Shown: one piece after another, positions 15,601 to 39,126 of the stretch | How positions within the stretch are numbered: position 1 is the first letter of the stretch | How the letters are laid out: each line of letters begins with the position of its first letter | Assembly: GCA_003117195.1 (NCBI GenBank) | Contig: BDSI01000140.1 | Location: 1 to 64,000 of the forward strand | From: Eudorina sp. 2006-703-Eu-15 | Lineage: Eukaryota; Chlorophyta; Chlorophyceae; Chlamydomonadales; Volvocaceae | Direction: 5' to 3' | DNA length: 64,000 nt | Position numbers and translations under genes: made by a program | The notes under the pieces: generated by a model | Database searches by the model: none | The model's input: only the letters and a program-made list of their open reading frames with translations | What the model was told of the DNA's origin: nothing

Positions 15601-17430
15601 TCTGGAGTCAGCGCATGAACCGGCACGCCGGTAATCCGTGCGCTCGAGCACAGTGCCCAATACATACCGGCAAGCCGGTAATCCGTATGCTCGAGCACAG
15701 CACCATAAATATAAACTATAGCGTCCCTAAAACTATACAAATAGAATCGCTACACAAAAATAACCTACTAGGTAAATTGATTCACTAAAAAGCACACGCC
15801 CGACGTCCGCGGGCCGCTGAGCACAGTCCGCCACCGGCGCGCCGGTCACGGGCGTGATCAGGGTATTGCAGTGCCGTGTGTGGCAACGGGCCAGTCTGCC
15901 GGCTTAACAACTGCGTCTGGCATCTGTCCCGGGCATCCGTTCCCTGCTCCCCGCCCTTCCCCCGTGTTTCCACCGCTCTTTCCAAACCCCGGACTTTATT
16001 CCTCTCTCTCCTTCACATAGGTGTACCCGTACTTTCCCTGTGCATCGCCGCCTCGGCATCTTGACACAAGGTACAGCCGTTTTGGTCACAACAGTCGTTT
16101 GTCTGGGCATGGATTGAGGTATTATAGTATATGAGGCGCCTCAGCACGATTTACCTACCCCCACGTACAGAATTTCGAGCAACAACGAATGTTTTGCAGA
16201 AATTTCCCCACGATAGCAGCACTCGCCCACCACTAGTCTTTCACCTCGTCTCAGCCATCCGCCGGACCGCCCTCGTGCGAAGCTTGCCCACCGATCCCTC
16301 GTTTGTATCCCCTCAGTTACGGTCTGCTGCCTGCCCGTTCGCACTGTGCCCGCATACCGATCTACACCCAGCCTGCTGATTATGCATCCGCGCTATTTTT
16401 GGCCTGAGTCGCACAGAGCCAAACAACTTCCTATTTACGCCGCCTTGCCGCCCACCCACATCCAGCCCTCCCAGCCCACAAACCCACTCACCTGCCATAT
16501 TTATTTACTCTCCTGAGTAAGGCCGCTAGCTCCATATCCCCGGCCACCAGCAGGCCACGGTCCACACTCCCGGCCACTAAATTGAAGGCCTCTCTGCAGA
16601 TAGAGGGCAGGTGGTAAAGGTGATTAGGTTAAGAATGTGCCGCCCATGCATGCGTGTCCTGTTAGTCCTGCCCCATGCCAGCCTGCCAACCCCATCGGAG
16701 ATGCGTGAGCCACTGGCCCCCCCCTCCGCCCTGGAGGCCCCTCAAAACAGTGCTAGCATCAGCACACATACCCCTTTCTACCCTTTCCGTCTGACGGTTT
16801 GGACTTCCTGCCTGCCAGCACTTTAGCTTCCTGCCTGCTTGTGTAACAAGTCTAAATGCTCAGCGTGTTTGCCTGCTTGCTCAAGTCCTCCATACCCACC
16901 TAGGTTGACCCTGTGTGCCTCAATACCCAAGTTCCGGAGCCTGCCCGCCCCGACCGCCGGCCGCCGGCCTGCCCACCCGAACATCCACCCCATTTATCCC
17001 ACCGAACTACCATTTTTCTCGTCTGGGTAACAGTGGCCCGCTTCACACTCATGCACACTCCTGGCGATGGGACAGCCCAATTATGCTCCCCGCTGCAAAA
17101 TTAAATATCCGGAATTCCAACCATGTTTACCTGCACAGGGGAAAGGAAAAGTGAAGAACGTGGTGTTATCAGTGACGATCGATGGACAGCCGAACCATTC
17201 AACCAGTTATTAATCTGCGATAATGATTCATCTTGATTGATCTAATATTACAACTGCTCTAAGTGGGCGCGCAGGAACCGTGGACGTGTGCGGCGAAATG
17301 CGCTAATTTCAGCAAACTCGGATCGAATCCACCAAAATAACCATGCTTCCATTACCTTGTATAGTTGACGTGGTAAGGAGGCGAAGACGCGGGTATCATT
17401 CCAATGTTGACTCGGGTCAACCTACAGTAG
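12680..17430. other. Region without a supported gene
   Basis: The first part may be 3' UTR of the protease gene (TGTAA near 13258). The segment 13560-15480 is GC-rich and full of overlapping frames on both strands, but none has a recognisable domain. A two-copy 47-bp direct repeat lies at 15619-15710. The stretch 15900-17100 is C-rich and low in complexity in places. Confidence 0.5.
15619..15710. repeat. Two-copy 47-bp direct repeat
   Basis: Two adjacent units begin ACCGGCA and share GCCGGTAATCCGT and GCTCGAGCACAG, with a few substitutions. No function is evident. Confidence 0.7.
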
Positions 17431-17619
17431 GGGGATAAGATTAAAAATATATATCCTATTACCCAATTCAGTTCTTCTCGCGAATGAAAGAGTCTGCGCC
17501 AACTTCAACAACGCCCCCGTGCAACGCCCTGCTACGCCCACAGGCGCTACCTGATGCTCGGGAAACTGGACCCCCGGCCATACTCATAAACACTAACGAG
17601 CAAGGTTCACATAACGGCG
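17431..17619 (+). repeat. Left terminal inverted repeat of the large transposon
   Basis: Begins GGGGATAAGATTAAAAATAT and ends CACATAACGGCG. It pairs with 36018-36206 in reverse complement. The outer flank ends ACAGTAG. Confidence 0.92.
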
Positions 17620-17998
17620 TTATTATGACCTGTTAAGTTATGCATCGAAGTTCATCCCATGCGAATCTCCAAGCCAGCAGTTCATCCGAGCCCGGTTGCG
17701 GGCCCATACAGGTGTAATCCACTTATGGCGAAGTTCATATGTTCGCATACCTTATGCAGTTCCACTATCAGCAGGCAGTATAATACAACCTCACTCACAG
17801 CGGGTGACAAGTCATGTACGGCAAATACTCCCAGTTCATCCACATAAGTACGGATAACCCTATCTGTCAGCCGTGGCTGCGGACTCATAGAACAGCTGGG
17901 ACAGTTTAATATCTGTAACGACAGGACGAGATTAATTTGAATAATTGAGCGCGCGCATGCATTGCATATATTTCAGCAATGATCAGTTGACATGCTAG

Positions 17999-20900
17999 CT
18001 ACACCCAGGCGCCTGGGTTTGCAATGCGCAGATGCTCCAACTCCCTGATGATATGCTGATGCGTCTCTGCGGTGATGTAGTACCGCTTAGTGTCCCCCTT
18101 GCGGGAGCTCCTCTCCAGCACCGTGATGTTTGTGCATATCACGTTGTCCAGTAGAGCCCCAGACAGCTTGGGTCGGTTGTCTAGGATGAAGTCGGTGTCA
18201 GAGCAATCCTGGTTAAGCCACCTGCCCTTCAGGACGTACTCACCAGCACAGTGTGTGCAGCCGTCCGCGTCCTTAAAGTTAGCTGACAGCTCACTTGCGG
18301 AGCGCAGCAGCATCAGGTAGTACTTGTACTCCGGGTATTGGTCTGCACTATCATTCTTCACTGCAATGAAGGTTCCCGCTTTCAGAGATGCGGTTACTGT
18401 CTCAAGGCGATCAGTATTAGGCTCCGCCTCCTTTAGAAGCCTAACGGAAGACCACTCGTTGACATGCTGCGTGTTGGCACAAGAAGGCTCTGCAGGCTCC
18501 AGGCCTGCAGCAGTCAGCCGGCAAAAAGGGCAGTAGCAGCTGCGCTCGCGGAGGAGAGTCACGCCCCCACTCTCAGCGCGCACGGAATGCTGTTTTTGGG
18601 TACTGGGGACCGTTTTTGGGATCCGAGTCTTGTACAACTCGCGCTCCGCAGTAAGCTCGCTGCTCGTCAGAATGTAGAAGTGACGCTCCTTGATGCGTGC
18701 GGACTCCCTGTCGTGGTACGATGCTCCAAGAAGCTGAGAGGAAGGCACCTGCGGTAAGTGTTGTTGAATGAACAAACAAACGTTACAGCGGACAGACCCC
18801 AAACTGGTCGTTGGTGTATATCAGAGCAAGCCCCAGTAAGCCCCACTGACAACACGGCCAGACACCTCCACACCTCAACGCTGCGAACAAGAACACATTC
18901 GGCCAGTAACAGCGGGGCAACACTACGAAAGGGATAGGCACAGCAAAGGGCAGGATTTGTAGAAATAAATGGATAAAGCAAAGCACGGGGAAGCCTATCA
19001 AGCACGTAGTTGCAAAGCATGCATTCAGAATGAACCCTGCCTCCCTGCACGATCGACACACCTGTAAGTGTTCTTTTGCGTACGTGACCACATCATCGGG
19101 CGTCTTAATTAAAACTCCGGTATCGCGCATAAGCTCCTTGTTGATGAACGCCTTCAGGATGCCCCCCTCTGAATCGTGCAGGCCTTTGCCATGGCCCGCC
19201 TCGAAGTAGTCATGCTGTACAGCAATCCCGTGCCTTTCGGGCCTACATGTGTTCACATATCACAAGTAAAAGCATGTGGCACTTCAGTAATAACGTTAAT
19301 AATGTTGATAGTGTATTTTTGCTACCGTAGCAATTTGAACTGCATGCAGCATCAGGTAGGGCTATAAACCAAGCAGCTGGTTACCAGTACGGTGTACGGG
19401 AAGCATGCTTGTATACCACATCATCGACGTGAACCAACTACGAAGCAGACATAAATAACTTACCAAAAGCTTTCCTGCAAGAAAGACTCAGCGCATTTGA
19501 ATTGTCCGGCACAGTTGTCGGACCAGCGAAACCAGATTCGAAGCCCACCGCCGTTTGCATCCCCCACTGTGGGCCACCTGTACAATACGCAAGAAAGATG
19601 ATTACATGTATGGAGGCCGGTGTGTTATGACTCCGGTCATCGGTGGCAGCCATCGGTGACAGCCGAAACTTCCTCACGAGCCATACACTGTATAAACGAA
19701 CTGGAGCCAACATGGCGCTCCAGACAGGCTCCCCAAGTGCACCGAAACACTCCCTGGGCCCACACTACCAGGGAAACACCCCGTTCCTCGCTGAGAACCA
19801 ACCATGGCCAGGGATAAAGCCCGCTCAGGGGGAGTTAGCTACCAGGGCGCCCCTCTTATCCAATAAGTGATATCCTACCGGCTTCGTAGGTCCTCTAGCA
19901 ATTTTTTATGTGTGACGTTGACGTACGCAACGTCCTGCGATGCATCGTCACTCAAGAAGTAATGCGTTTCCACCCGCTGTTCTCCTCCTGCAAATAACAA
20001 AGACAAATTGCATGGAACCTAGATCGATGCACGATCGGTTGGGACATGTGGAACGAAGGCCATCCCACCAATAATCTAACCCACCCGGCATGACGAAGTA
20101 GACCACGACTACCAGCAGGGACATGGTGATGGTGTGCCAGTACATGGACTGTGCTTCCTGCTTAAAACGCAGAATCAGCTTCTCGGAAAAGTCACACGTT
20201 GACACTAGCTCGTGGGGCAGTTGATTTTGGGAATCCGTCGCTGCATGGAAAGCGTCTCGCTGCCAGATTTTGCTGTAATGGTGTTTCGCGAAGGCAGGGA
20301 GCATGTCCGCCAAGCGCTTCACGCAAATAGACAGCCGATCACGAATCCGGACGGGCTCCAAATGGCCTTGCAGGAGTTTGTCAAGACGGTCGTATGTGAT
20401 GATCGGATCCTCTGACGACCATTCCTGTAACACAGCGCGGCCAAAGGCTTCTCGAGATGCTGTGCAGGGTCATTGTTAGGGACTTATACTGTAACCCAGC
20501 GTTACAATTCCGCCGCCTCCTGCTGGAGCAAGTACAACGCGATAAGTATGTAGTTCCACACCTTATTAGATGGGGCACTCCGTCCCAGGCAAAATTGACA
20601 TGGATACCCTGCTAACCCCGCCCCGTACATGTACGGCACGGCAACTATGAGTGAGGAGGCGCACACTGCAATAATGTAAATTGCACAGGGGCACACGCAC
20701 CTGCTCCTGAGCTGCTATGCGTGCTGCCCTTGGGACGCGTAGGGGTTCATCCTCATCGTCTGCATTAAGATGGTCCGCTGCACCTTCCACTCCTTCCATG
20801 GCAGTCGGCAGCGAAGCCTCCTGGTCATCATCATCATCATCATCATCATCATCGACACCAGAACTGTCAACATCAGTCAACAGTTCGGAAGCGTCGTTTG

Positions 20901-22534
20901 ATGGCGCCTGCTGGTAATAGCGAGGTGCGCACTCATTTAGCACATACAGTAAATAAACACAGTACGTGCATGTGCCCCGTACCTCAGAGCCCGAGTCGTC
21001 AGCTGACATTGACCCTTCGCCTTCGGTACTGCTGCCGCTGGCGTCGCAACTGCTGTCGTAACGCCGCTGCTGAAGAATCCCACCCGCTGCTGTGAGATTT
21101 CCACTAGTTCCCGCGCCCTCATGGCCTCCATCGTCCATTAAAGTGTCTTCCAGGTCTTGAGGACCTTCCTATAATCAGCATGAGTAAAATGTGTACCAAG
21201 CAGCCGCTGGTTATGCACAAGGAAGTAAGTGCAGCTGTTTTGTCCTTACCCGAGGAAGATAGCGAAGGCCTAATCGGTGAATGCCACAGTCCCCACAATC
21301 TCCATCCAAGCAGTTCCGGCTTGGAAGTATGTTGCCAGAGCGAGGCGGGCAGTACACCGCTTCCGTGAAAGTGTACGCATTGAAAGGGTTCGGAACACGC
21401 GGGGCTCCATGAAGGCGCTTCCGTTTTGGCGCAAGCAATGCGACATGGTCCCCAACAGCGGACGCGATGTTACGGAAGTTGGTGCATTTTGCACAGACGC
21501 AGACGCTCCGCTTAAGACCCTGTCAAAACGTGAGGATCAAAATCGTGAGGAATTTTTCACCGACGGATGGATGACCCATGGGGTCCGCTGTAACATCCTT
21601 GACATTATAATAGGATATCCACGCATGTCACAGTAGTAAGAACGACATACATATGGAGGGTAGGCAGGATAGGCAAGGTATGGAGGGTAGGCTCACCTGC
21701 TCAGGGGCGATGTTGGAAGGCTTGAGACGTACGAAAACGCCGTACGACACACCATGATGGGTCGGGTGGCTGGAAAGATAATCATACAGTAAGTCACGAT
21801 AGCTTTTGGTAGCATGTTTCCGCCGTACATAAGAAAACATCCACTTTCCACGACTGTCCTTCGATCGGACACGCACCCTGATGACGTCACGCGCATAGGG
21901 GCTGTGTTTACTGTTCGCCACCCAAAATGCACGGACGGATTCGACTGTCTCCGGGTCAATGCAGTCCCTTCTCCGGACCAGTCGGTATGGTTGGTGAGCT
22001 TCAGTTGTTGAGCCGCCCACAAGATCTTCATGGCGTTTGGCCCCCTGGAGAACCTGTCTTCGCTTGAAACCCAGCCGGCTGCACACAGCAGCTGTCATTC
22101 CATAAACTGCAACCACCGCGGTACCTATAAAATAATGTGGCGATAAGGAAATGTCGGAAATAGTATGCCGACTAACGCATTGTGGGGGCCCGATGAAGCA
22201 TGGGAGCATAGGGCGGGGATTCGTATATCTATCGTTAAACAAGTACGCACACACATACACATATGTGTTTCGTCACACCTGCCACAGCGGTAGCCAAGGT
22301 TGTCCACGCCTCTTTGCGCTTGGTATCTTGCCCTCCCGATTTCTTGGTTGCTTTAACGGTTTCCCGGATGGAGTCACCGATTGCCCTGTCCACCTGGACG
22401 GTCTGGTACCGTTCAGGCAGATAGGCTTTGTGTCTCTGTGAAAACAATACGTCAAGAAGTAATCCAAGTTGCAGGACACCAAGAGCAAGTAGATCTTTTA
22501 GGAGCTTGGACTCGAGCTGTGAAAGGCGCGCCAT
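17999..22534 (-). CDS. Transposon gene A: DDE-type transposase-like protein
   Basis: Ten exons on the minus strand join in phase: 22534-22279, 22124-21697, 21519-21250, 21168-20983, 20910-20701, 20424-20085, 19987-19879, 19577-19464, 19242-19062, 18748-17999, about 947 residues. The start is the first ATG (MARLSQLESK); a further upstream exon is not excluded. The core has three spaced motifs: CDFSEK (Asp about 528) followed by QSMYW, WSDNCAGQFK (Asp about 620) and AGHGKGLHDSEGG (about 654-665). Together they match a widespread eukaryotic transposase-like family with DFSEN, SDNC/SDG and HGKG..D..GG blocks, presumed to form an RNase H-like active site. A cysteine cluster (CVCAKC, later CLDGDCGDCG) and an acidic stretch with ten consecutive Asp lie N-terminal; CPFC and CTHC pairs lie in the last exon. 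The exact acceptor at 20910 or 20907 is ambiguous. Two introns hold dispersed repeats. It probably acts on the element's own DNA. Confidence 0.78.
18764..18885 (+). repeat. Dispersed ~120-bp repeat, copy 2
   Basis: Same family as 2148-2266 (opposite strand) and 38248-38368. It lies in the intron of gene A between 18748 and 19062. Confidence 0.68.
19668..19730 (+). repeat. Dispersed short repeat, copy 2
   Basis: Resembles positions 3-60, with CATACACTG, CATGGCGCTCC and GACAGGCT in the same order. It lies in an intron of gene A. A short internal duplication containing CATCGGTG occurs just upstream, near 19640. Confidence 0.55.
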
Positions 22535-23211
22535 TTTCGGTGTTACTGGGTGTTTAGTTCTGGGACTTCCCTGCACTACAAGGATTTGATGATATGAAGC
22601 ACTTGAAGCTGCAATCAGTGCATTCGTATGGCATACTTAAGCGTTCAGCGAGAGAAGTAAATGGATTTCACTTCCCACCTGCTTCCCGACGTACAACATC
22701 GATTCTTTTGTATGAAACACAGCATCAGCATTATTGCGTTTTCTATCTTAAAAGAATAATGGGTTACGGAAAGTTCATGTCCTTTACAGTCTTGGCAACT
22801 TGCCCCCGCCGCAGAACAACAATTTTCCAAATTTTGTCTGCCTTTCTCGCCAATAATGTTACGAACATGTTCATTGAAGTTAATTTTAGTTTGGAGGATT
22901 CTCACCCTGTCACTCTATGTCCACTGCACCAGAGGTCAGGCACGACTACTAAATAAGTGGACACAGAATCAGCTTCAGAAACTCACCACCAAATTGAACC
23001 AAACTACAGTACAAGGTATACACACATGATTGTAACGTCGTCAAGCACCCAAAGTGGATAAGTACAACAGGATGAGATCGTTCATAGTCCAGTGCGGATC
23101 ACTCACTCCTTACCCTATCATAATGTTTGGTTAGGGAATTAATCAAGCAATTGTAATTCTTACAATTTTGTACCCAGGTCTTATGGCATACGGGCCGCTC
23201 ACCGACACAGG
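22535..23211. promoter_or_regulatory. Divergent intergenic region between transposon genes A and B
   Basis: 677 bp separate the start of gene A (minus) from the start of gene B (plus), so both promoters should lie here. No clear TATA box can be assigned. Short open frames on both strands have no recognisable features, and an additional 5' exon of gene A cannot be excluded. Confidence 0.4.
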
Positions 23212-25353
23212 ATGTCCTTGCGTAAAAGTGATTTAAGCGCGTTAGCCAAGCAGTACACGATTCCCAGACCTAAGCCGTCCTCCACGCGGAAGCGTAAACC
23301 TCGAGGGCAGACCAAACCAAAAGACCGTTTCTTGGGGCCCGACGATATCAAGCCCAAGCAAGCTCACAAGAAGCGGCCTGCCAGTCATTTCGAAAATCTT
23401 GCGGCCACTGCTGCGAAGAAGAGAAAGAAAGATAAGACCGGGAGCGGCGACGGAGATGCAGGCGTACCTCCAGCGGCAAGAGAAGGTACAAGGTCTACGA
23501 AAGCTGCACACTTCCTGTTTTGACTAGAGTCCAAATATAAATTACTTTATGACATGAGATTGATGTCGCTTCCGCCTGTACTCGCCTGTACTCCGTGTGT
23601 TACGGTGTTACCCCAGGAGGCGCAGCGCCTCCTCCCCAACCCGGAGGCGGTAACCGGGCGGATGTTAACCGCCCAATCAAGGCGCCTCGTGCGGGTGCTA
23701 ACCCGGCACAACCAGCGCAGCGCCCATCCATACGTGAGGTCAACGCCCGACAGCACGATGCATGGCGGAGGTCGTACCCTGACTACTGCTTGTTGGGCTT
23801 CACATATGAGAGTGGACCCGGGGCTGCTTCAACCGCCCGTCTTCAGGAGTTCATGAAGGCGGACTTCACGCAGCGCGTCACGGACAGGCTTTCACCTACA
23901 TGCCCGCAGTGCTGCATGCCGGAGTGGGCGATACCTGCAAATGATGTATCCGCATCGGTGCGGTACGTCACCATTCAGGGTAGCGTGGAGGTACCCTATC
24001 CACGCTTCAAGTGCCTTCATTGCCCAAACACCATGCCGTTGACGCGGGTAGTCCACCCCACTGAGATCGGATGCTTCCCCAGTACTCCAGACCGCCCAGC
24101 TGCGTGGTTTGATGAAGCGCTGATGCGCCAAGCAGCATTTCTGCGTTCGGAGACGCCCTGCTCAGCTGCCGCGTTTGCCAAGACCATTCATCGACTTCAC
24201 GCCGCGAAAGGCTTCGATACCCCTGCCGGGATAACAGAGGGTATCTGCAATGCCGCGGCTCACTGGGACAGGGTGCAAAAGTCGATGCGTAGTGCCCAGG
24301 TCCTACGCGTGAGCACCATCCCTCTGCCGGGGCAGTCGAACCGCGAGGGCTGGTCTGATTGTCCAGCATGCTGGCGGGAATGTGTCGCCATTTCCGGGGA
24401 CGCGTGTTTGGGGCTCCGGCGGTTCCGTGCTGCGGCGAGCGGGTCCCTGGATCTGAGTCCCTTGGCGTCTTCCAGCCTCTTTGTTGGAGACAATGTCGTC
24501 ACAGAGCGCCTACGGCAGCGAGGGAAGTTGGCAGACCCCGACGCAGTGTCCTGCTCAGACTTCAAAGCGGCCAAGGTGTTCGGCCGACGTGCTGCCAACT
24601 ACGACCGCCTTGGTGTGGCAGCGTTCGCCTGCCGTCATGGATTCGTCCCCGCCATGGTGAGCCTCCACACCGAGGAGAACTTCGTGTACTATGAGGTACT
24701 GCTCGAGGCGCTGAACCAGAAGATGGACCTAAGCAAGGTCAAGGCAGTGTTTTTGGACGTTGCATGCAAGTTCGACGGCTACTACCAACGGTGCGGTTGA
24801 GACTGTCCTTATGGCTGAACCGCGTTGATGGGTAACGGTTTCGGTTTGTCATGTAGATCATGGGTGCCTGTGCTGCATCACGCATTGGTTGATGTCTCTA
24901 GGGTTCGACAAATGCAGATACTGTCGCCTTCGGTCCCTTCAACCCGGCCCATTCCAGATACTCGTATCTTTGAAGCCGTAAATGCTGTCCACATGCAACA
25001 GGGTTCGCGAGGAGCTCGACCTGCCTGACAAGCTGCCCTTTGCGATCGGGCCATGGCACATCCGCCCACACAAGCCTGAGTGCAACGTGCGGTACAACTC
25101 CCGATACATGCCTGGGCTAGGGCTGACATTCGGAGATCTCATCGAGCACCTGTGGGCGGATATACGGCGGCATTGGTACATCACTGCCTACATGTCACCT
25201 GCGGCACGGCAGGACTTCATCACAAGTCTGGTGGGTAGAGGGGTTGCAGTGGCATTAGAGGCGACTAAACGCGCAACTAAATGCGCGACTTACATCGATG
25301 TGATGTCACAGGTGCAAGAACGCAACCGCAGAAAGGAGGAGGGCCTGGCGTGA
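23212..25353 (+). CDS. Transposon gene B: KDZ (Kyakuja-Dileera-Zisupton) transposase, C-terminally truncated
   Basis: Three exons, 23212-23485, 23617-24790 and 25002-25353, join in phase to about 599 residues (572 if the in-frame GT-AG segment 25231-25311 is removed). The N-terminus is lysine-rich and nuclear-localising in character (KKRKKDK). A zinc module follows, with CPQC near 187 and CLHC near 224, then CPACWRE. The KDZ catalytic blocks are visible: SGDACLGLRR (Asp about 353), AVFLDVACKF (Asp about 472), HIRPHKPEC (about 502-510) and LIEHLWAD (Glu about 531). The protein stops at TGA 25351, shortly after the Glu block, whereas KDZ proteins normally continue. After the TGA the same frame stays open for QLLAGLKKAIKQNADIQS, which looks like continuing helical protein, so TGA may be a nonsense mutation. 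Gene C ends 65 bp downstream on the other strand. Confidence 0.85.
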
Positions 25354-25417
25354 CAGCTGTTGGCGGGTCTTAAGAAGGCCATCAAGCAGAATGCAGATAT
25401 TCAGAGCAGGTGTGGTT

Positions 25418-28400
25418 TTAGGCCTCGGGACGGACCCTGAAGTGATCAATGTCATGTGTCGTTTGTACTGACCCCGGACGCCCGTGAACCGCGACACCCT
25501 CCCTGTGATGCTGATGTAGGCTGGCGAGGGAGGGCCGTGATCCATCATCCAACCACCCGAACCCCCGTGACGCCCTGGTGGCCGAGGCGACGCGAGTAGC
25601 AGAGGCAATGCTAGAGCTGCTGCTCCCATTCTCGTGAACGTCCTCCTCCGCCGATCCCTCGTCACTTAGCTCCATCTTGCCACGCCGTCTCTGGGGCACA
25701 ATACCTGCAGGGTGCGATAGGGTATCGTGGCGACGTTAGCTGTATGATGTCGTTGCTAAATTGGGATTCAAACACTCGACACCCACTTTTACATGGAATG
25801 CAAGGCGTGGCGTGACACTGGTCCATTAACCACCCAGGCCCAGCAATTCTCACTCACCCAGCCGGACCAGGAACTTGTGGACCTGCTTGCTGTTCCACCC
25901 GCCACGTAGCGTCGCCGCAATCATGAGGTCCCGGTCAGGGTCCGTCTTGTACTGCCGGAATAGTTCACGGAGAGATAGCTCCTGTACAGGGATTGACAAC
26001 ACACATACAAACATCACACAACGAATGCCTGCAAGTTCGATGGTATGCACTCTTGACACACTGACCTGCGCTGGTGTCAGCTGGCAAAAGCGCAGCTTCA
26101 TTTTCCGAAGCAGCTTCGAGATGTCGTCGTTTGTGATGGACGGAATACCTGGTGGTAAAGTGTTTCCCTCCTCAGGTCCACGCCCAGATGGGCCACCGAC
26201 TCTCATGCCCGCGGCGATCACGTCAATGTTGAACTTGCTGGAGTTGTGCCGCTCGAACAAGACAACTAGCAGCGACAGCTGTGCCTCCGTGAGCTGGGTG
26301 GAGGCGCTTCGCCGGCCTATGCATCCGTTAAGCAGAGAACAGTCAGCAATGGAACCCATGTTGACAGGACATAGCCATCAACCATCACCCAACTAGCGTT
26401 CCGTACCTCTGCCACGTCCTCCAGCTGCTTCGCTGCGTACTCCCCCAACCTGTGACATTGACGGGATTGTCGGCCTCGCTGAACTACGACCCTGTAATCA
26501 TATGGGAACGGCGAACACACCATTCCGTCATTTGTCTGTCGAAGTTTCCATACAGACTCCCATACAGGCAGAATCGGCGCCTCCTATTCATGTTTATCAT
26601 TGTCCCGATGTCCCCATGTCCGTAATCATTCCAAACCTCCAATCAACTATGCTAACACATTCCGCTTGACGAATGGGTACTCACCGGAAAGGCAGCCTCC
26701 TCCAGCTCAGCTCGCAACTGTGCCTTGTTCTGTACCATGTCACGCGCATTCAAGACATCGAGCTTCACCTGCCTCAGCTGGTCACGCTTCAGATGGGATA
26801 TGCCGTGGACGTCGATGAATCGACGCAGCTGATCCATGTCCCGTGGCAAAGGTTCCGCCCCTTGGATAATGCTTGGATGCGACCCCCCGCCTGTGGCCGC
26901 TGGGTGCGCTGCTGCCTCGCCCGTCGCGCCAACTGCCGCCTGCACTGCCGCCGGCTGTGCTACACCCGCTCGCCCAGCCACTTGTCCCATACTTGGGGGC
27001 GCCGCTGCGGGCCCCCCTGCCGCTGCGCCGCCTGTGGCAGTGGCCGCTGGGTGCGCCGCAGCACCCTGCGTCGCTGCTGCCTCGCCCGTCGCGCCAACTG
27101 CCGCCTGCACTGCCGCCGGCTGTGCTGTGCCCGCTCGCCCGGCCACTTGTCCCATACTTGGGGGCGCCGCTGCGGGCCCCCCTGCCGCTGCGCCGCCTGT
27201 GGCAGTGGCCGCTGGGTGCGCCACAGCACCCTGCGTCGCTGCTGCCTCGCCCGTCGCGCCAACTGCCGCCTGCACTGCCGCCGGCTGTGCTACGCCCGCT
27301 CGCCCAGCCACTTGTCCCATACTTGGGGGCGCCGCTGCGGCCCCCCTTGCCGCTGCGCCGCCTGTGGCAGTGGCCGCTGGGTGCGCCGCAGCACCCTGCG
27401 TCGCTGCTGCCTCGCCCGTCGCGCCAACTGCCGCCTGCACTGCCGCCGGCTGTGCTGCGCCCGCTCGCCCGGCCACTTGTCCCATACTTGGGGGCGCCGC
27501 TGCGGCCCCCCTTGCCGCTGCGCCGCCTGTGGCAGTGGCCACTGGGTGCGCCGCAGCACCCTGCGTCGCTGCTGCCTCGCCCGTCGCGCCAACTGCCGCC
27601 TGCACTGCCGCCGGCTGTGCTACGCCCGCTCGCCCAGCCACTTGTCCCATACTTGGGGGCGCCGCTGCGGCCCCCCTTGCCGCTGCGCCGCCTGTGGCAG
27701 TGGCCTCTGGGTGCGCCGCAGCACCCTGCGTCGCTGCTGCCTCGCCCGTCGCGCCAACTGCCGCCTGCACTGCCGCCGGCTGTGCTGCGCCCGCTCGCCC
27801 GGCCACTTGTCCCATACTTGGGGGCGCCGCTGCGGCCCCCCTTGCCGCTGCACCGCCTGTGGCAGTGGCCACTGGGTGCGCCGCAGCACCCTGCGTCGCT
27901 GCTGCCTCGCCCGTCGCGCCAACTGCCGCCTGCACTGCCGCCGGCTGTGCTACGCCCGCTCGCCCAGCCACTTGTCCCATACTTGGGGGCGCCGCTGCGG
28001 GCCCCCCTGCCGCTGCGCCGCCTGTGGCAGTGGCCGCTGGGTGCGCCGCAGCACCCTGCGTCGCTGCTGCCTCGCCCGTCGCGCCAACTGCCGCCTGCAC
28101 TGCCGCCGGCTGTGCTACGCCCGCTCGCCCAGCCACTTGTCCCATACTTGGGGGCGCCGCTGCGGGCCCCCCTGCCGCTGCGCCGCCTGTGGCAGTGGCC
28201 GCTGGGTGCGCCGCAGCACCCTGCGTCGCTGCTGCCTCGCCCGTCGCGCCAACTGCCGCCTGCACTGCCGCCGGCTGTGCTGTGCCCGCTCGCCCGGCCA
28301 CTTGTCCCATACTTGGGGGCGCCGCTGCGGCCCCCCTTGCCGCTGCGCCGCCTGTGGCAGTGGCCGCTGGGTGCGCCGCAGCACCCTGTATCGCTGCTGC

Positions 28401-29367
28401 CTCGCCCGTCGCGCCAACTGCCGCCTGCACTGCCGCCGGCTGTGCTACGCCCGCTCGCCCGGCCACTTGTCCCATACTTGGGGGCGCCGCTGCGGCCCCC
28501 CTTGCCGCTGCGCCGCCTGTGGCAGTGGCCGCTGGGTGCGCCTGCGTCGCTGCTGCCCGACCTTCCACCACTGCATTGCCTGCGCCAGTCGCTCCCTCGT
28601 CTTCCTCTGCTGACACCTGCTCCTCGCGCGTGTCCGCGGTTTCAGATGTGCGTAACAGCGGATCTATCGAGTCGGCCAGTGACCAAAACTGCTGCTTCAG
28701 CTCTGGTCGGGTTCGGAACACGCCCTGCACCGCATCGCTGGAGACTTGCGTCCAGCCCCTCCGAGGAAAGAACTTGATCATTATCCAGTTCGAGCCGTCC
28801 TTATTGGCGCTGATCAGGGTGCTGGTTGCTGTTGCCATCTTCTTGCAAGCGTTCTTGTCTTTGCGACGGCGCGCACCAGCACCTAGCTGCGCCTCTGCAT
28901 TTACAAACAAAAGATAGTCGACTTCGGATGTTGCGTTGCATGGTGGTATGCTAACACTGGCACTAACACGCGTACACCGTCTGCTTACCAGTCTGCTCTG
29001 AGTAGCTCGTCGACTCCTCACCAGTCACATCCTTTAAGCAACCGTTGCACGCTCGATGACGTACATCGAGCAGGACGCGGACGCCGCGTCGACCATGTTC
29101 GGGATCATCCCGTGAAGCGACCAGATTCAAATTAAAGGACGCCTGCGTCGGCCTTCCTTCGCAAACTTGATGAAACTTTCCATCTTTTGTCTTGCAGTCA
29201 GAGCTATTAGCCACAATTCGCTGCAGATTGGTCAACTGTTCGTCATTGATCGTCTCCTGGAACCCTATGTTTGCTGCAAATCGCAATGCTTCTCTACCGA
29301 TACATTTAGAAAAACGAGAGTCGCCCTTGCAATCAGTGCCTAAATGGCAACACCTTTCATTGGCCAT
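25418..29367 (-). CDS. Transposon gene C: Ala-rich protein with ten 55-residue repeats
   Basis: Six minus-strand exons join in phase: 29367-28989, 28894-26685, 26491-26407, 26316-26066, 25981-25858, 25704-25418, about 1,111 residues. The N-terminal 126 residues are cysteine-rich (RCCHLGTDC, CNGC). Next comes a basic segment (ARRRKDKNACKK), then about 550 residues of ten repeats with the core PPSMGQVAGRAG and QPAAVQAAVGATGEAA. The C-terminal part is helical; the stretch around QLTPAQELSLRELFRQYKTD up to KFLVRLG weakly resembles the C-terminal segment of TIMELESS/Tof1 proteins. The end is Ser/Glu-rich and disordered. The minus strand is preferred over the long plus-strand frames because only it connects through splice sites to non-repetitive sequence. 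Function is unknown; position in the element suggests an accessory DNA-binding or scaffold protein. Confidence 0.7.
25755..25848 (-). repeat. Possible tRNA-derived (SINE-like) remnant
   Basis: Read on the minus strand, GGGTGGTTAATGG resembles an A box and GTTTGAATCCC a B box. Arms do not pair as in a functional tRNA. It lies in the last intron of gene C. Confidence 0.3.
26890..28547 (-). repeat. Ten-copy 165-bp coding tandem repeat in gene C
   Basis: The block CTTGTCCCATACTTGGGG recurs exactly every 165 bp at 26981, 27146, 27311, 27476, 27641, 27806, 27971, 28136, 28301 and 28466. Copies differ by a few bases, giving variants such as AGRAGV, AGRAGT and AGRAGA and RGAAAA versus GGPAAA. Because 165 is divisible by three and no unit contains a stop in several frames, very long shadow frames appear on the plus strand. 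Confidence 0.95.
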
Positions 29368-30292
29368 TGCGTGTTGTCAATGTTTGATACAATGACATGT
29401 CCACACATATTTTATATGTTGGAATACATTTGCTTAACCCTAGCAAAAGAAGTGTGTTGCTGTTCTTGTCCCCAGCCGTGATGTGTACGTCTGTGTCCAC
29501 TCGATCGGTGGACATTGCCGTTCACTGGTGGAGTGGACACCAGGTCACCGCCTAAGATGAGGTGACACATAGTTACTAGATCGGCGGCGAAGTAAAAAGG
29601 TATGGAACCGTATGACGAAAAGTCATGCAAAATACGAGCGACGACATATAACATAATTCAACGTATTAGCGTACTTTTATCTCTACACGTCAGATTTCAT
29701 GCAGTAGAAGCCAATGCATACATGGAGTTGCGCGCAAAAGTCACATCATGGTCGTACCTGAAACCGTTTTAATGCAAGGAACGAACTCCTTAATAATGGA
29801 AAATCTTTGATAGGAGTATATATCTCTCTGTATATGTCATACTTCTTGCGATGGAAGTCGGTGTATACAGGGAGCCGTGCTCTGAAGTCATAAGTCATAC
29901 CTGCAGCCTTTTGGAAGTAAAGTTTTGGAGGCAACGATCTCTTAAATGTATGAGAATTCCCTGCAGGAAAGCATATTTCTCTTTAGTTATTTGAATTCAT
30001 GCGGTAGAAGTCAGTGCATACCATGGGTCACACCATCCTGCAAGTACTGTCCGGAAGTAATGCCGTGAAATTTTTACAAGAATAACCACCTCGCTCACAT
30101 GTTAAAAATCGAAGGGCATCAGCACCACATTATATATGTGACCTTACAATCAGACAGTATACTTCCGCATCCGGGCTTCATTTCGCAACGTTAACTCTGT
30201 CCCGCAGGGTTCGGCGCTTCCGGCAAATCTGTTCAGTACTTTATCCATCGTGATCTTTTGATATTACTGCTTATCCATCTTTATGCAAACCA
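29368..30292. promoter_or_regulatory. Divergent region between transposon genes C and D with degenerate 151-bp repeats
   Basis: Three diverged units with landmarks like GAAGTCNNTGNATACA occur near 29707, 29853 and 30004, about 150 bp apart. Minus-strand stretches between splice-like sites (KRSLPPKLYFQKAA and DFPLLRSSFLALKRFQ) could be old duplicated exons. Promoters of C and D should lie here, but no motif can be assigned. Confidence 0.4.
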
Positions 30293-33200
30293 ATGGGTAA
30301 AGAGAAAAGGCAGAGCGGGCCAGAGCGCGGCAGAGGCAGAGGCAAGCCGCCAAGTGTCCCCGGTTCAGCCCCGAACAAGGGCCGCAGAGGCAATCTTACG
30401 CCCGCCGTGCCAACCATCTCCACGAAATCCGGTCGGCCAACCGCCACACGCGAGAGTAAGTGATTGGAGTTGTAGTGACCCAGGAATAACCAGAAGTCTT
30501 TATTGTTCACTTGGATTATTTCATGTGACTGTAGAGAACTATGACATCGACATCGGTGGCGTGCTGCACTGTGACGTGCCGGGTTGCCGGTTTCACCCCA
30601 GGTCGTCAGTCTGGGCGAACCTCGGTTTCATTAACCAGTCGCATGCAGCTCTGCATGAGGTTATGTCCCACGGGAAGACGGTCCAGGAGGTGTACCAGAA
30701 GGAGTATCCTGCATACCAGCCGTTGGGTGCGCCACCAGACGAGGCCTCCCTTGCGGTTCCGCTCAGCACCATCCTCAACGATCCAGACCAAAGACGTAAG
30801 CAGATATTGTGTGGCAGCATTGACGTGCCCTTTTTGCATCCACACTGTACTAACCCAATTCCATTCATTTGCATCCCCGCACGTTTATCAGAGGCATTTC
30901 GCCGCCTGGCATTCTGCGGGGAGTGCTTGGAAACCAGCATGGAGAAAAAGAACCTGACGCTGCGCACCATCATCCACAAAACACAAAGGGACCAGCATGA
31001 TGCCCAGCGGAAGACCCAAGATGATCACACTGAACTGGTTTCGGGGGAGGACGTGTTACAGCGTATTCCTGAGGACGTGCTGGTAACCCAGAAATTCTTC
31101 ATCTGGGACAAGCCGGTGATCCACAAACCAGGTTCCCGTGGGGGGCCAGCGCCATCTGGACATGGTGGCACCGATCTCGATGGTGTCGACAGTGATGATG
31201 CCGATTCAACAGCCCAGGCCAAGCGCCCCAAAACCATGCCAGCTGACGCCGGCCTCGTAGGTAAGGAAGAACCGGAGCTGGTCAGATAGTGTAGTTATAG
31301 CCAGGTTGTGTAAGATATGAAATCATTCTTGCGTGTTCCAGGAACAGCCAAGGATGCCGCTGACATACTTGTCGCCCTAGCAGGTGCGTGCTTTTGCCTT
31401 ACCTGATATCATGGTGCGTGCGTTTACCGCATCGGCCTTGCACCTGTTGTCACATGCAGGCGGCGCGGCTGCAGCGACGGGCGGGGTCGTCAGCACGGGG
31501 CAAGGCGCGGCGACAGGGATGGCGGGCTACCAGCAGGTGGCTGCGCTCGGTACGTATCTGTTCTTTCTTGCTGCCGGTGTGTGGTGTGTTCTGCAAAGCG
31601 GCGTACACGACTAAATGCGGCTAATATGCGCTGTGTTCAGGCCAAGCGATTGCTCAGCAGGCCGTGCTACCCCAGCAGGGATCGCAGCTGCCCGTCGTAC
31701 AAATGCCTGCCGTGGCAGCAGGTACGTGCTTGTTGGATTGCATTCATGGTGCGTGCGTTTACCGCATCGGCCTTGCACCTGTTGTCACATGCAGGCGGCG
31801 CGGCTGCAGCGACGGGCGGGGTCGTCAGCACGGGGCAAGGCGCGGCGACAGGGATGGCGGGCTACCAGCAGGTGGCTGCGCTCGGTACGTATCTGTTCTT
31901 TCTTGCTGCCGGTGTGTGTTGTGTTCTGCAAAGCGGCGTACACGACTAAATGCGGCTAATATGCGCTGTGTTCAGGCCAAGCGATTGCTCAGCAGGCCGT
32001 GCTACCCCAGCAGGGATCGCAGCTGCCCGTCGTACAAATGCCTGCCGTGGCAGCAGGTACGTGCTTGTTGGATTGCATTCATGGTGCGTGCGTTTACCGC
32101 ATCGGCCTTGCAACTGTTGTCACATGCAGGCGGCGCGGCTGCAGCGACGGGCGGGGTCGTCAGCACGGGGCAAGGCGCGGCGACAGGGATGGCGGGCTAC
32201 CAGCAGGTGGCTGCGCTCGGTACGTATCTGTTCTTTCTTGCTGCCGGTGTGTGTTGTGTTCTGCAAAGCGGCGTACACGACTAAATGCGGCTAATATGCG
32301 CTGTGTTCAGGCCAAGCGATTGCTCAGCAGGCCGTGCTACCCCAGCAGGGATCGCAGCTGCCCGTCGTACAAATGCCTGCCGTGGCAGCAGGTACGTGCT
32401 TGTTGGATTGCATTCATGGTGCGTGCGTTTACCGCATCGGCCTTGCACCTGTTGTCACATGCAGGCGGCGCGGCTGCAGCGACGGGCGGGGTCGTCAGCA
32501 CGGGGCAAGGCGCGGCGACAGGGATGGCGGGCTACCAGCAGGTGGCTGCGCTCGGTACGTATCTGTTCTTTCTTGCTGCCGGTGTGTGTTGTGTTCTGCA
32601 AAGCGGCGTACACGACTAAATGCGGCTAATATGCGCTGTGTTCAGGCCAAGCGATTGCTCAGCAGGCCGTGCTACCCCAGCAGGGATCGCAGCTGCCCGT
32701 CGTACAAATGCCTGCCGTGGCAGCAGGTACGTGCTTGTTGGATTGCATTCATGGTGCGTGCGTTTACCGCATCGGCCTTGCAACTGTTGTCACATGCAGG
32801 CGGCGCGGCTGCAGCGACGGGCGGGGTCGTCAGCACGGGGCAAGGCGCGGCGACAGGGATGGCGGGCTACCAGCAGGTGGCTGCGCTCGGTACGTATCTG
32901 TTCTTTCTTGCTGCCGGTGTGTGTTGTGTTCTGCAAAGCGGCGTACACGACTAAATGCGGCTAATATGCGCTGTGTTCAGGCCAAGCGATTGCTCAGCAG
33001 GCCGTGCTACCCCAGCAGGGATCGCAGCTGCCCGTCGTACAAATGCCTGCCGTGGCAGCAGGTACGTGCTTGTTGGATTGCATTCATGGTGCGTGCGTTT
33101 ACCGCATCGGCGTTGCACCTGTTGTCACATGCAGGCGGCGCGGCTGCAGCGACGGGCGGGGTCGTCAGCGCGGGGCAAGGCGCGGCGACAGGGATGGCGG

Positions 33201-35701
33201 GCTACCAGCAGGTGGCTGCGCTCGGTACGTATCTGTTCTTTCTTGCTGCCGGTGTGTGTTGTGTTCTGCAAAGCGGCGTACACGACTAAATGCGGCTAAT
33301 ATGCGCTGTGTTCAGGCCAAGCGATTGCTCAGCAGGCCGTGCTACCCCAGCAGGGATCGCAGCTGCCCGTCGTACAAATGCCTGCCGTGGCAGCAGGTAC
33401 GTGCTTGTTGGATTGCATTCATGGTGCGTGCGTTTACCGCATCGGCGTTGCACCTGTTGTCACATGCAGGCGGCGCGGCTGCAGCGACGGGCGGGGTCGT
33501 CAGCGCGGGGCAAGGCGCGGCGACAGGGATGGCGGGCTACCAGCAGGTGGCTGCGCTCGGTACGTATCTGTTCTTTCTTGCTGCCGGTGTGTGTTGTGTT
33601 CTGCAAAGCGGCGTACACGACTAAATGCGGCTAATATGCGCTGTGTTCAGGCCAAGCGATTGCTCAGCAGGCCGTGCTACCCCAGCAGGGATCGCAGCTG
33701 CCCGTCGTACAAATGCCTGCCGTGGCAGCAGGTACGTGCTTGTTGGATTGCATTCATGGTGCGTGCGTTTACCGCATCGGCGTTGCACCTGTTGTCACAT
33801 GCAGGCGGCGCGGCTGCAGCGACGGGCGGGGTCGTCAGCGCGGGGCAAGGCGCGGCGACAGGGATGGCGGGCTACCAGCAGGTGGCTGCGCTCGGTACGT
33901 ATCTGTTCTTTCTTGCTGCCGGTGTGTGTTGTGTTCTGCAAAGCGGCGTACACGACTAAATGCGGCTAATATGCGCTGTGTTCAGGCCAAGCGATTGCTC
34001 AGCAGGCCGTGCTACCCCAGCAGGGATCGCAGCTGCCCGTCGTACAAATGCCTGCCGTGGCAGCAGGTACGTGCTTGTTGGATTGCATTCATGGTGCGTG
34101 CGTTTACCGCATCGGCGTTGCACCTGTTGTCACATGCAGGCGGCGCGGCTGCAGCGACGGGCGGGGTCGTCAGCGCGGGGCAAGGCGCGGCGACAGGGAT
34201 GGCGGGCTACCAGCAGGTGGCTGCGCTCGGTACGTATCTGTTCTTTCTTGCTGCCGGTGTGTGTTGTGTTCTGCAAAGCGGCGTACACGACTAAATGCGG
34301 CTAATATGCGCTGTGTTCAGGCCAAGCGATTGCTCAGCAGGCCGTGCTACCCCAGCAGGGATCGCAGCTGCCCGTCGTACAAATGCCTGCCGTGGCAGCA
34401 GGTACGTGCTTGTTGGATTGCATTCATGGTGCGTGCGTTTACCGCATCGACCTTGCACCTGTTCTCACATGCAGGCGGCGCGGCAACACCAAACGAGCGT
34501 ATCCTCGAGTTGCTGAAAAAGCCACAGGAGGACTTTCAAGGCGGGCCGACCACGTACGCCACCGTCCAGGGGATCGGCAGGCTTTATGTCCAGGTCAACG
34601 CCATGAACGCGTCACCAGACTTGGCGATGATGTTCGGGGGGCTTACGAAGACGGATTTCATCGACATTTGCTCATCATTAAGCAGCGAGCGGAGCAAGAG
34701 AGAGTAAGACCAACAGGAACTTGTGTTTCGGACGTATCAGCTTTTAGTTTTTGCTTGACTAATCCAGCGGAACGTAGCCGCGCAATGTCGGATAGCGTTC
34801 ATACTGTTTATATACCTAGAAATGTATCACATCTGTCTGTTCGATACATACACACTCTTCCAAACACTTACACCAAAACCCTTTTTGTGTCTATAGGAAG
34901 GCAGCGGCGGACGAGGAGTGGACTGCGGCGTACACTGACGCTAAAAAGTTGGAGACCCAGGCTGCAGAACTGCTGCGCACCCGTGACCGCATAATCAGGC
35001 CCCTCAAGGAGGATATCTCGACCTTCATGGCGACGCTTGATGAATTCGACTCTCAGATGACTGAAGGTGCAGCTAGCCTTCAGCAGCGGGCCAAGCAAGT
35101 CCACCACGAGTACCCCTACAACCAGTATTCGAAGATTGCGGAGAAGTACGACATCATTGACAGGTTTTGCGCATATGCTCCGCTCGTCCGAGAGGCGCAG
35201 GGAGCCGGGTTCGATCACGACATGGACAAGGCACTACAGGGCGTCAAGCAGGCCCTGGATGGCATGCAGGGCCCGGTGCCGCACCCTGGCCTGCCAATCC
35301 CCAAGCCGGTCGTTGATCACTTGGAGGAGAGCGTCGTGAAGGACAAAGTCGCGTGGAAACTGCACGGGCTGCAAAGCTGTGCAACGAGCGTTGGAGTGGT
35401 CTCCGAGCCAACCTCTGCTCCAAGTGCCCTGACGGGAACACCGCCGTGTGGCGCCGCCGGGACCTCTGGAGGCAGCATGGTTGTGGGGACGGAAATACCC
35501 GACACAGTTCATCTGGCGGACGCGGACCGGCCAGGGGCAAACCGCCCAGCGGTTCTCGGTGCTGGGGATGTTGTGGCGAATCTGTTCGGTGCGCGAGTGT
35601 CGGGCAGTGCTGAAGGTAGCAAGGGCAGTGCTGAAGGTAGGAAGGGCGCATCATCATGTGGCCGCGTTCTTGAGACAGCGTTATCTCAGCAGGGGCTGTA
35701 A
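30293..35701 (+). CDS. Transposon gene D: protein with a spliced tandem exon array (nine 57-residue repeats)
   Basis: Twenty-three exons are inferred: 30293-30455, 30535-31260, 31342-31383, nine pairs A/B (A 90 bp from 31460, B 81 bp from 31641, each repeated every 335 bp), 34475-34703 and 34897-35701, about 1,167 residues. All array exons are phase 1 at both ends. The N-terminus is basic (MGKEKRQSGPERGRGRGK). Exon 2 has a possible zinc-binding set (LHCDVPGC, then several His, later CGEC); the in-frame segment 30796-30891 has GT-AG ends and may be spliced out. The array encodes Ala/Gly-rich (GGAAAATGGVV) and Gln-rich (GQAIAQQAVLPQQG) repeats. The C-terminal 340 residues are helical, probably coiled coil. 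The stop overlaps a TGTAA. I do not recognise the family. It is likely an accessory protein of the transposon. Confidence 0.68.
31411..34487 (+). repeat. 335-bp tandem array, each unit two exons plus two introns
   Basis: Nine full units plus a partial tenth. Each unit holds exon A (90 bp), a 91-bp intron, exon B (81 bp) and a 73-bp intron; 90+91+81+73 = 335. Acceptors are CACATGCAG and GTGTTCAG, donors GTACGTAT and GTACGTGC. Units differ at only a few sites. Units 3 and 5 share CAACTG where others have CACCTG. Units 6-9 share GCGTTG in the intron and an Ala for Thr codon in exon A. Confidence 0.95.
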
Positions 35702-36017
35702 TAAATGGGGCGGGACGGCATTCAATACCATTTTGTTGTCTTTGGGGGCCATTACGCGTTCTGTACTTCAATTCGTTGAGCGCTATGAAGTTGCTTGTTA
35801 CTCGTCAGAACATTGACACTAATATCTACCCTATCTATCATTATGCCGGTTGGCCCGAGAGTGCGCATCACCTTCTACAATGGACTACACGATGTGCGCA
35901 TGGGGGTTTGATCCGTTGCGAATGACACCTCCGATACGGATGATTCATGTGTATTGGCCGAGTAGGACGGGTTCAAGGGGTACAGCGAACTCAACAAGGT
36001 TCCGAAGTAACTTCTGG

Positions 36018-36206
36018 CGCCGTTATGTGAACCTTGCTCGTTAGTGTTTATGAGTATGGCCGGGGGTCCAGTTTCCCGAGCATCAGGTAGCGCCTGTGGG
36101 CGTAGCAGGGCGTTGCACGGGGGCGTTGTTGAAGTTGGCGCAGACTCTTTCATTCGCGAGAAGAACTGAATTGGGTAATAGGATATATATTTTTAATCTT
36201 ATCCCC
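36018..36206 (-). repeat. Right terminal inverted repeat of the large transposon
   Basis: Reverse complement of 17431-17619 over 189 bp, no mismatch seen. Ends ...AATCTTATCCCC; the outer flank begins ATAATTGCAT, different from the left flank. Confidence 0.92.
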
Positions 36207-37265
36207 ATAATTGCATTTAATGTATGGAGGTCCCTTGTCATTCTTCACTATGACAGCGATGTTTGTATTTTCAGCGGAACTCAACGACCTAACTTATAGT
36301 AACAACATATTTCTTTATTTCATAAAGCCCAATGTCAATCTCACGTCTATCAGTGCAGTTTCCAAGCAGAACGGAAATTACTAGGGCCGCCCTAGGTGCG
36401 GCAGACAGGGCACTCATTCGTGACCGGAACCTACTTCATACATATGTGCTCGTAGCATGCAAACTCAACTTTCAAGAAAGCTTTATGCATTCAGCTGTGT
36501 TTGTTTATATAATCACAGTACACCAAAGCGCGCTGCCAAAATGTCATGAACAATTGTCCGTACACCAAATCCATACGTTACCCTTACACCATTGAGCGCA
36601 TCCTGCTTCATTAACAAATCATAACACGAACTATTAAAATGTCCTATGCTCGCCGATTGAGCATTATCTGTTGCTGACCTTCATGAATCATGTCAGTTCG
36701 TAAGCTACAAAGCTTTCTACCGGTAAAAGAACCCTTGGTCAAGCAATAGAAGCATGATTGTGGTTATCCGTGGTTATCTAGCAACTGATCTTACGTGATT
36801 TGGTGAGATCGCTCCATGTCCGGTATTACCCGTAGGGCCGAGGCGACATGCCGGCCGGCCGTACGTGTTTCACCTTGCTTGTGCATCTGGAGTGGCTAGA
36901 GAGCATTTAGCTGCGGTATCGACACTGTTACATGCCCGCGAGAGTAAAAGATGAACCATGAACGTAAGATATCATCGTACACTTGCCGTACAGTCCAACA
37001 TCGGCGCGGCCTCCTGATTACTGAGGCCCACGCAATATTAAATGGTGTGGCGGATACAGTGACGGGGCTTTCCCACGGCTCACCGCGGGGCTGCGTTGCA
37101 TCCGCGCGAGAGTGTACCACCCGCCCGCCTACTTGGACAGGGCCAGCAGAGCACGCACTGCCAGAAGAAGCAATACACGGCGTACACGGCACGGATACTC
37201 ATTCACTGGTGTCCCTTGCTGGGCGGCGCATCACATGCATCTTGCTCCACCCGACAGTAGTAATC

Positions 37266-37483
37266 GGTACAAGGTGGACCCGAGTCCCGACCGGGTGTTG
37301 TAACAGCCCAGATAGCTCGCTGCTAGGCGCCCCATCTCATCAACCATTACCAAGGCCTGCGCACCCGTCCTCCATCACCCGCGGGGGTCATGCAGCCATA
37401 CTGGCCAACACACCAGGGTACCAGCGCGCCAGGATTGTCTCCCCTGGAAACCGCGCCACCAGACCCGCCGAATCACATGGGTG
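37266..37483 (+). repeat. Foldback repeat, copy 1
   Basis: About 215 bp starting GTACAAGGTGGACC and ending CCGCCGAATCACATGG, in direct orientation to copy 3 and inverted relative to copy 2. Confidence 0.85.
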
Positions 37484-37840
37484 CTGGCTTTGGAAGTGGT
37501 GCCTAGCCAGTAAGCATGTCGCAGATAGACGCCGGCAACCGCAACGGCCACCCATGCATCATCAATCCTCCTGATGATAGCTATCAAGGTTCAGGATTTC
37601 GGCATCATAAGGAGTTGTTCACCATATGCTGCTGAGTACGTCGTTATGTACAGTACGTATAGTGAACCATACGCGCGTTTCTGCCAGCCACTCCAGCGAT
37701 ACATCAGACGGTGATAGCTGCCCCCACATCAAATAATGCATGCCGATGTATCTGAGCAGCCGCCCGCCTTAGCACGCCTGGCTAAGGACCCGCTCGCTCC
37801 CCGCCACCATCCAAAACGAAACCAATTACCTTCTCCGCTA

Positions 37841-38057
37841 TGTGATTCGGCGGGTCTGGCGCGGTTTCCAGGAGATAGAGGCAATCCTGGCGCGCTGGTA
37901 ACCTGGTGTGTTGGCCGGTATGGCTGCATGACCCCCCGCGGGTGATGGAGGATGGGTGCGCAGTCCTTGGTAGGGGTTGATGAGATGAGGCGCCTACGAG
38001 CTATCTGGGCCCGTTGGAACACCCGGTCGGGATACGGGTCCACCTTGTAACGGTTAC
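37841..38057 (-). repeat. Foldback repeat, copy 2
   Basis: Reverse-complement copy of 37266-37483 and 38902-39126. Its inner end carries the palindrome GTAACCGTTAC, shared with copy 3. Copies 2 and 3 together could be the long inverted ends of a 1.3-kb non-autonomous element. Confidence 0.85.
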
Positions 38058-38901: not shown

Positions 38902-39126
38902 GTAACCGTTACAAGGTGGACCTGAGTCCCGACCGGGTGTTCCAACGGGCCCAGATAGCTCGTTGCTAGGCCTCATCTCGTCAACCCCAGGCAGTTCGCA
39001 CCCATGCTCCTTCACCCGCAGCGGGGGGTTCATGCAGCCATACCGGCCAACACACCAGGTTATCAGCGCGCCAGGATTGCCTCTATCTCCTGGAAACCGC
39101 GGCAGACCCGCCGAGTCACATGGCGG
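38902..39126 (+). repeat. Foldback repeat, copy 3
   Basis: Direct copy of 37266-37483, starting GTAACCGTTACAAGGTGG and ending CCGCCGAGTCACATGGCGG. Confidence 0.85.

Follow-up and report, generated by a model that had tools for sequence, protein, structure and literature searches.

The window analysed here is a 64,000-nucleotide stretch of the volvocacean green alga Eudorina sp. 2006-703-Eu-15, namely positions 1 to 64,000 of contig BDSI01000140.1 (C140); coordinates refer to positions within this window, other loci are named by contig (C104, C49 and so on), and the genome searched comprised 181.2 Mb in 3,033 contigs. Two inverted arms at 17431–17619 and 36018–36206 are reverse complements at 189 of 189 bases and enclose, arms included, 18,776 bp, in which four gene-like regions alternate in orientation: gene A (17999–22534, reverse strand) for a predicted DDD transposase, a KDZ transposase gene (23212–25353, forward strand), the repeat-bearing gene C (25850–29367, reverse strand) and the repeat-bearing gene D (30293–35701, forward strand). 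A sequence-only reading of the window had recognized these arms and genes correctly and had taken them for one giant four-gene DNA transposon. The analysis bore out a DNA transposon of large size and recent age, its long inverted ends and the presence of both a KDZ transposase and a DDE-like protein, but not the single four-gene unit. With high confidence, the locus is read here as two unrelated transposons, each likely moved by cut-and-paste with its own enzyme, in which a 6.66-kb Kyakuja-type KDZ element (22901–29559) is nested inside a larger element carrying genes A and D (17431–36431).

As the sequence-only reading had proposed, the whole genome was searched with the 189-bp arm, which uncovered six arms, two each at C140, C104 and C49, and hence three copies, demonstrating that the inverted pair is not a product of chance. 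The 189 bp proved to be the inner part of a terminal inverted repeat (TIR) of 414 bp, which begins with GGTTCCGGTCACG and extends outward past the 189 bp in the C104 and C49 copies as well as in the right arm of the window. Pairwise alignment of the five full arms gave 412–414 identical positions in 415 columns, the last column lying just outside the arm. The right TIR of the window copy (36018–36431, reverse strand) is complete, with the tip GGAACC at 36431 as the true right end of the element, whereas the left TIR (17431–17619, forward strand) retains the inner 189 bp only. Since the outer 225 bp are present five times in the genome rather than six, besides one weak 78% match at C80, and occur once in the window, the left arm of the window has lost them. 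The two arms are thus real and share one outer element rather than belonging to separate ones, but the 189 bp are not its ends. Without the nested element, the outer transposon amounts to ~12.3 kb of its own sequence. An Rfam scan of 17000–38500 gave nothing at gathering level. A viral origin was also considered and rejected, as none of the 10 pattern-matched stretches among viral contigs was confirmed by tblastn and no relative was found.

The copies at C104 and C49 have complete 414-bp arms on either side and measure 5,109 bp and 3,897 bp, respectively, the C49 copy lying in the opposite orientation. The former is composed of window pieces 17431–18625, 21904–22278, 22532–22904, 29560–31522 and 35467–36431 and the latter of 17431–19017 and 34357–36431, each with a full left arm in addition; where a breakpoint falls in the tandem repeat, its position is uncertain by whole repeat units. 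Over alignment pieces longer than 300 bp, the mismatches to the window numbered 55 in 4,857 aligned bases for C104 and 16 in 3,661 for C49, and parts of gene A survive in both deleted copies. TGCG stands on both sides of the C104 copy and ATTA on both sides of the C49 copy, and among lengths of 2–10 bp only 4 bp fits as the target duplication (two of the two copies with both ends). The family combines 414-bp TIRs with target duplications of constant length at independent copies.

The host DNA around the outer element belongs to an older dispersed repeat, which occupies 16286–17430 on the left and continues through 36432–37117 on the right. When the two flanks were joined (500 bp of the left and up to 686 bp of the right), each of the five related repeats examined (C31, C85, C41, C98 and C83; identity 59.9–62.7%) aligned in a single piece through the insertion point, the alignment of C83 stopping 121 bp beyond it. 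The state without the outer element is therefore seen in these repeats, and little host DNA was lost. The right flank starts with TACT and the left flank before the clipped arm reads CAACCTACAGTAG, which would be compatible with TACT as the target. An inverted duplication or an assembly fault in place of a transposon could produce the left arm of the window, which stops abruptly with neither tip nor target duplication, but it would have to explain two further loci at which these arms have complete tips and 4-bp duplications, along with host repeats that run across the insertion point without a break. We give this explanation almost no chance, and the target duplications and continuous host repeats led to its rejection for the family, a rejection that covers the family and not the left junction of the window.

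The nested element measures 6,659 bp in the window, where its left CAG tip and left target duplication are missing, and its borders are common to copies elsewhere. DNA from its left side (22890–23600) has seven other matches in the genome, all starting at 22901, and DNA from its right side (28900–29580) has nine, five of which end at 29559 while four are partial. CAG precedes the match start at all seven left ends elsewhere, where the window has ATT instead, and AAGATG ends five of the six right-end loci examined outside the window; the CA..TG tips of Kyakuja are present in copies elsewhere in the genome. Two copies fetched whole, at C128 (3,413 bp) and C382 (4,230 bp), are internally deleted with both ends kept, and 7-bp target duplications were found at each (CAACGGG at C128 and GCAATGT at C382). 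The C323 copy has the same flanks as C382 on both sides, as expected if a single locus was assembled twice or a segment was duplicated, and was for this reason counted together with C382 as one.

The KDZ transposase gene was modelled with three exons (23212–23485, 23617–24790 and 25002–25353) encoding 599 amino acids and is open throughout. Pfam domains were assigned above cut-off for KDZ (PF18758, 9.4e-09 and 1.2e-13 in two exons) and for the CxC3 cluster (PF18804, 4e-21). Gene C, a gene-like region accessory to the nested element, has tentative outer exons and contains 55-residue tandem repeats in 165-bp units, and the length of the repeat tract is unequal between the C128 and C382 copies. 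In its KDZ and CxC3 protein, 7-bp duplications and CA..TG tips, the nested element fits the description of Kyakuja in PMC12730594 and is read as Kyakuja-type. One composite transposon, in which the two transposase genes and the two accessory genes travel as one unit bounded by the inverted ends, would account for the window itself, where all four genes lie between identical arms; however, neither of the two other copies holds the set, and the genes for KDZ and the 55-residue repeats sit within an element that has its own ends, duplications and copies in other flanks. A composite unit is thus very unlikely, and the single giant four-gene transposon was rejected on the evidence of C104 and the independent KDZ copies.

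C104 joins GGAGGATTCTCA straight to AGGTGACACATAG and lacks 22905–29559, so that its junction coincides with the right border of the nested element exactly and with the left border within 4 bp. The adjoining AGGTGAC (29560–29566), the putative 7-bp target site of the nested element, is present there as a single copy. C104 is most likely a site that the nested element never filled. Alternatively, C104 might be a former host of the Kyakuja element, which was later excised or deleted from it; the Kyakuja match also begins with the CTCA found at the C104 junction, and three further internal deletions are present in C104, but agreement of this kind with both borders would be rare for a random deletion, and excision from a state such as that of the window copy, which is without CAG, would be unusual. 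We consider this loss improbable and retain the empty site. The checks suggested by the sequence-only reading were thereby answered in part: copies in which only some of the genes lie between the same ends exist as the internally deleted C104 and C49, the former without the KDZ part at its borders, and the nested KDZ element has its own ends inside arms that are not divided between elements. For empty sites, the outer insertion point is continuous in five of five host repeats and the nested one is most likely empty in C104.

Gene A was modelled with ten exons on the reverse strand (22534–22279, 22124–21697, 21519–21250, 21168–20983, 20907–20701, 20424–20085, 19987–19879, 19577–19464, 19242–19062 and 18748–17999), encoding 946 amino acids. 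No Pfam model was found for it. Homology searches, in each of which the best 7,996–8,000 candidates were scored, placed it in a broad family with relatives in Volvox and in animals, the best named relative being from Volvox carteri. The 42-sequence alignment of the family excludes gene A itself, which was placed through a separate alignment. Three invariant aspartates form a conserved DDD triad and the predicted fold is of the RNase-H or integrase-like type, which together make gene A a likely DDD transposase; the acidic triad on an RNase-H fold, as found in transposases, is thus present here on a predicted fold. The protein would likely act on the 414-bp ends and is predicted to make the 4-bp target duplications. 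Gene A could instead be a passenger, with another transposase moving the outer element, given that its catalytic role is a prediction, that the superfamily of the outer element is without assignment and that gene A is absent near a relic at C80 (no gene A match with E < 1 in the interval 123.2–162.4 kb). Against this stand the conserved triad with its integrase-like predicted fold, the breadth of the family and the gene A parts that remain in both deleted copies, and we hold a passenger role to be quite improbable.

Two high-copy repeats lie in introns of gene A. An ~81-bp repeat at 20426–20506, with TTACAG at both ends, stops one base before the 3′ splice site of intron 5; its matches are mostly 94–100% identical among the best 40 of 307 candidates scored, often occurring as direct pairs ~320–334 bp apart, and it is possibly an introner-like or terminal-repeat element. 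In intron 7, 19635–19858 is a 224-bp piece of a second repeat (~88% identical among the best 40 of 1,322 candidates scored), which mostly runs on past both borders in the 11 loci examined.

Gene D was modelled with 23 exons encoding an accessory protein of 1,167 amino acids, which contains nine near-identical repeats of 57 residues, each coded by two small exons in a 335-bp tandem unit (31460–34401). Two long pieces of the protein were scanned with Pfam and gave no domain above cut-off. At C80, a decayed relative has retained the C-terminal portion of gene D (54% amino acid identity over 229 columns), directly followed by a stretch 74% like part of the TIR, which speaks for a long-standing membership of gene D in the outer family. 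A helper role for gene D in binding the ends or assembling the complex is a guess and the weakest step of the scheme. Although they belong to unrelated elements, the proteins of gene C (repeats at 26907–28691) and gene D are both rich in Ala, Gly, Pro and Gln and have near-equal tandem units of 55 and 57 residues, the former coded without introns in the unit and the latter with introns in it. A lone 285-bp piece of gene D (C112:156918–157202, 98% identical to 35063–35343) has no terminal repeats within 1.5 kb on either side. Short inverted-repeat elements to the right of the transposon in the window (37258–38057 and 38902–39101) also adjoin this piece at C112.

The complete KDZ coding region was found by DNA search in the window only, while three other loci, two of them likely one locus, hold ~610 bp of it. 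The exons of gene A were likewise found in the window only, besides one 36-bp match around exon 5, among the best 40 of 1,322 and the best 40 of 307 candidates; only 40 were scored because of the two high-copy repeats in its introns. The window is thus likely to be the main or only assembled source of both transposases, as judged by DNA search. With both left tips lost, it would likely serve as a grounded helper for the deleted derivatives of both families.

In the proposed course of events, the outer element with genes A and D would have inserted into the older host repeat, and the Kyakuja element would then have landed in it normally with a 7-bp duplication of AGGTGAC. If AGGTGAC is read as the target, the window is explained by such an insertion together with a short deletion that would have occurred afterwards between two CTCA repeats and cost the nested element its CAG tip and left duplication; a separate 225-bp deletion would have removed the left tip of the outer element. 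C104 and C49 would be internal-deletion derivatives, probably arising by incomplete gap repair with both ends kept, which gene A would move in trans; the window locus would then be a grounded source of both transposases.

Several points weigh against the nested pair and its history. The window copy of the nested element has neither a target duplication nor CAG and the left tip of the outer element is missing, so that normal insertion with later loss is what we infer for both. A 50-bp inverted pair (70% identity) lies near the ends of the nested element, while fungal Kyakuja are described without TIRs in PMC12730594. For the fold of gene A, Foldseek against the PDB returned no match at E ≤ 0.001, its best rows being SPARTA/Argonaute-type proteins and NurA, and a sequence-profile search of the PDB gave nothing up to E 1. 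The VIA-align comparison is a re-alignment of Foldseek's own list, and a first structure model from three sequences was poor (predicted local distance difference test, pLDDT, 33) and was dropped. The claim of a sole source rests on DNA searches with the best 40 candidates scored, so that diverged copies could remain.

Kyakuja belongs to the KDZ superfamily and is characterized by 7-bp target duplications and CA..TG tips (PMC12730594), and Kyakuja and Zisupton are reported from relatives of Chlamydomonas in PMC8226300. The nested element shares with Kyakuja the KDZ transposase with a CxC3 cluster and, in copies elsewhere in the genome, the duplications and tips. It differs from the account in PMC12730594 in its 55-residue-repeat accessory gene, its weak inverted pair and the clipped left tip of the window copy; no TET/JBP gene was seen in the Pfam-scanned pieces, in contrast to that account of Kyakuja. 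The giant KDZ, EnSpm and Sola-1 elements of Ectocarpus exceed 10 kb and carry accessory genes of unknown function together with nested insertions of unrelated elements (PMC12477816), and the same source cites a 31.7-kb KDZ element of C. reinhardtii. The window element resembles these giants in size (>10 kb), accessory genes and a nested unrelated element, but the nested insertions of Ectocarpus are mostly fixed among several copies, whereas here a single copy of the outer element contains the Kyakuja insertion, and the outer transposase lies outside KDZ, without assignment to a superfamily. Ectocarpus (PMC12477816) already provides giant DNA transposons that combine accessory genes with nesting; the outer element therefore represents a new family within an established class, and the element nested in it is also of an established kind.

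Sola2 has 4-bp AT-rich target duplications, TIRs of 12–21 bp and a transposase of ~900 amino acids (PMC3627910). Compared by description only, the outer element is like it in its 4-bp duplications (TGCG and ATTA) and a transposase of about 900 residues, and unlike it in its 414-bp TIRs and in TGCG, which is not AT-rich, in one of two copies. No published description of the outer element was found in open-licence PMC full text, a search outside which lie Repbase and subscription papers. A bolder claim joins two parts: that the outer element represents an unnamed superfamily of DDD cut-and-paste transposons in green algae and animals, with 4-bp duplications, 414-bp ends, a Pfam-less transposase and a Ulp1 protease domain in some relatives, and that one nested, grounded locus alone supplies the enzymes for the deleted copies of two unrelated families; both holding together seems doubtful to us.

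What seems unusual at this locus is the likely filled and empty pair, the Pfam-less transposase and the apparent restriction of both enzymes, within the assembly, to one place with two clipped elements. The claim of a four-gene giant becomes a series of events, comprising an outer element, a nested Kyakuja, two lost left tips and derivatives shortened internally with their ends kept. It yields a filled site with its most likely empty counterpart and a Pfam-less transposase family linking Volvox-like algae and animals, and the locus would allow testing whether two families can be driven in trans from a single immobile site.
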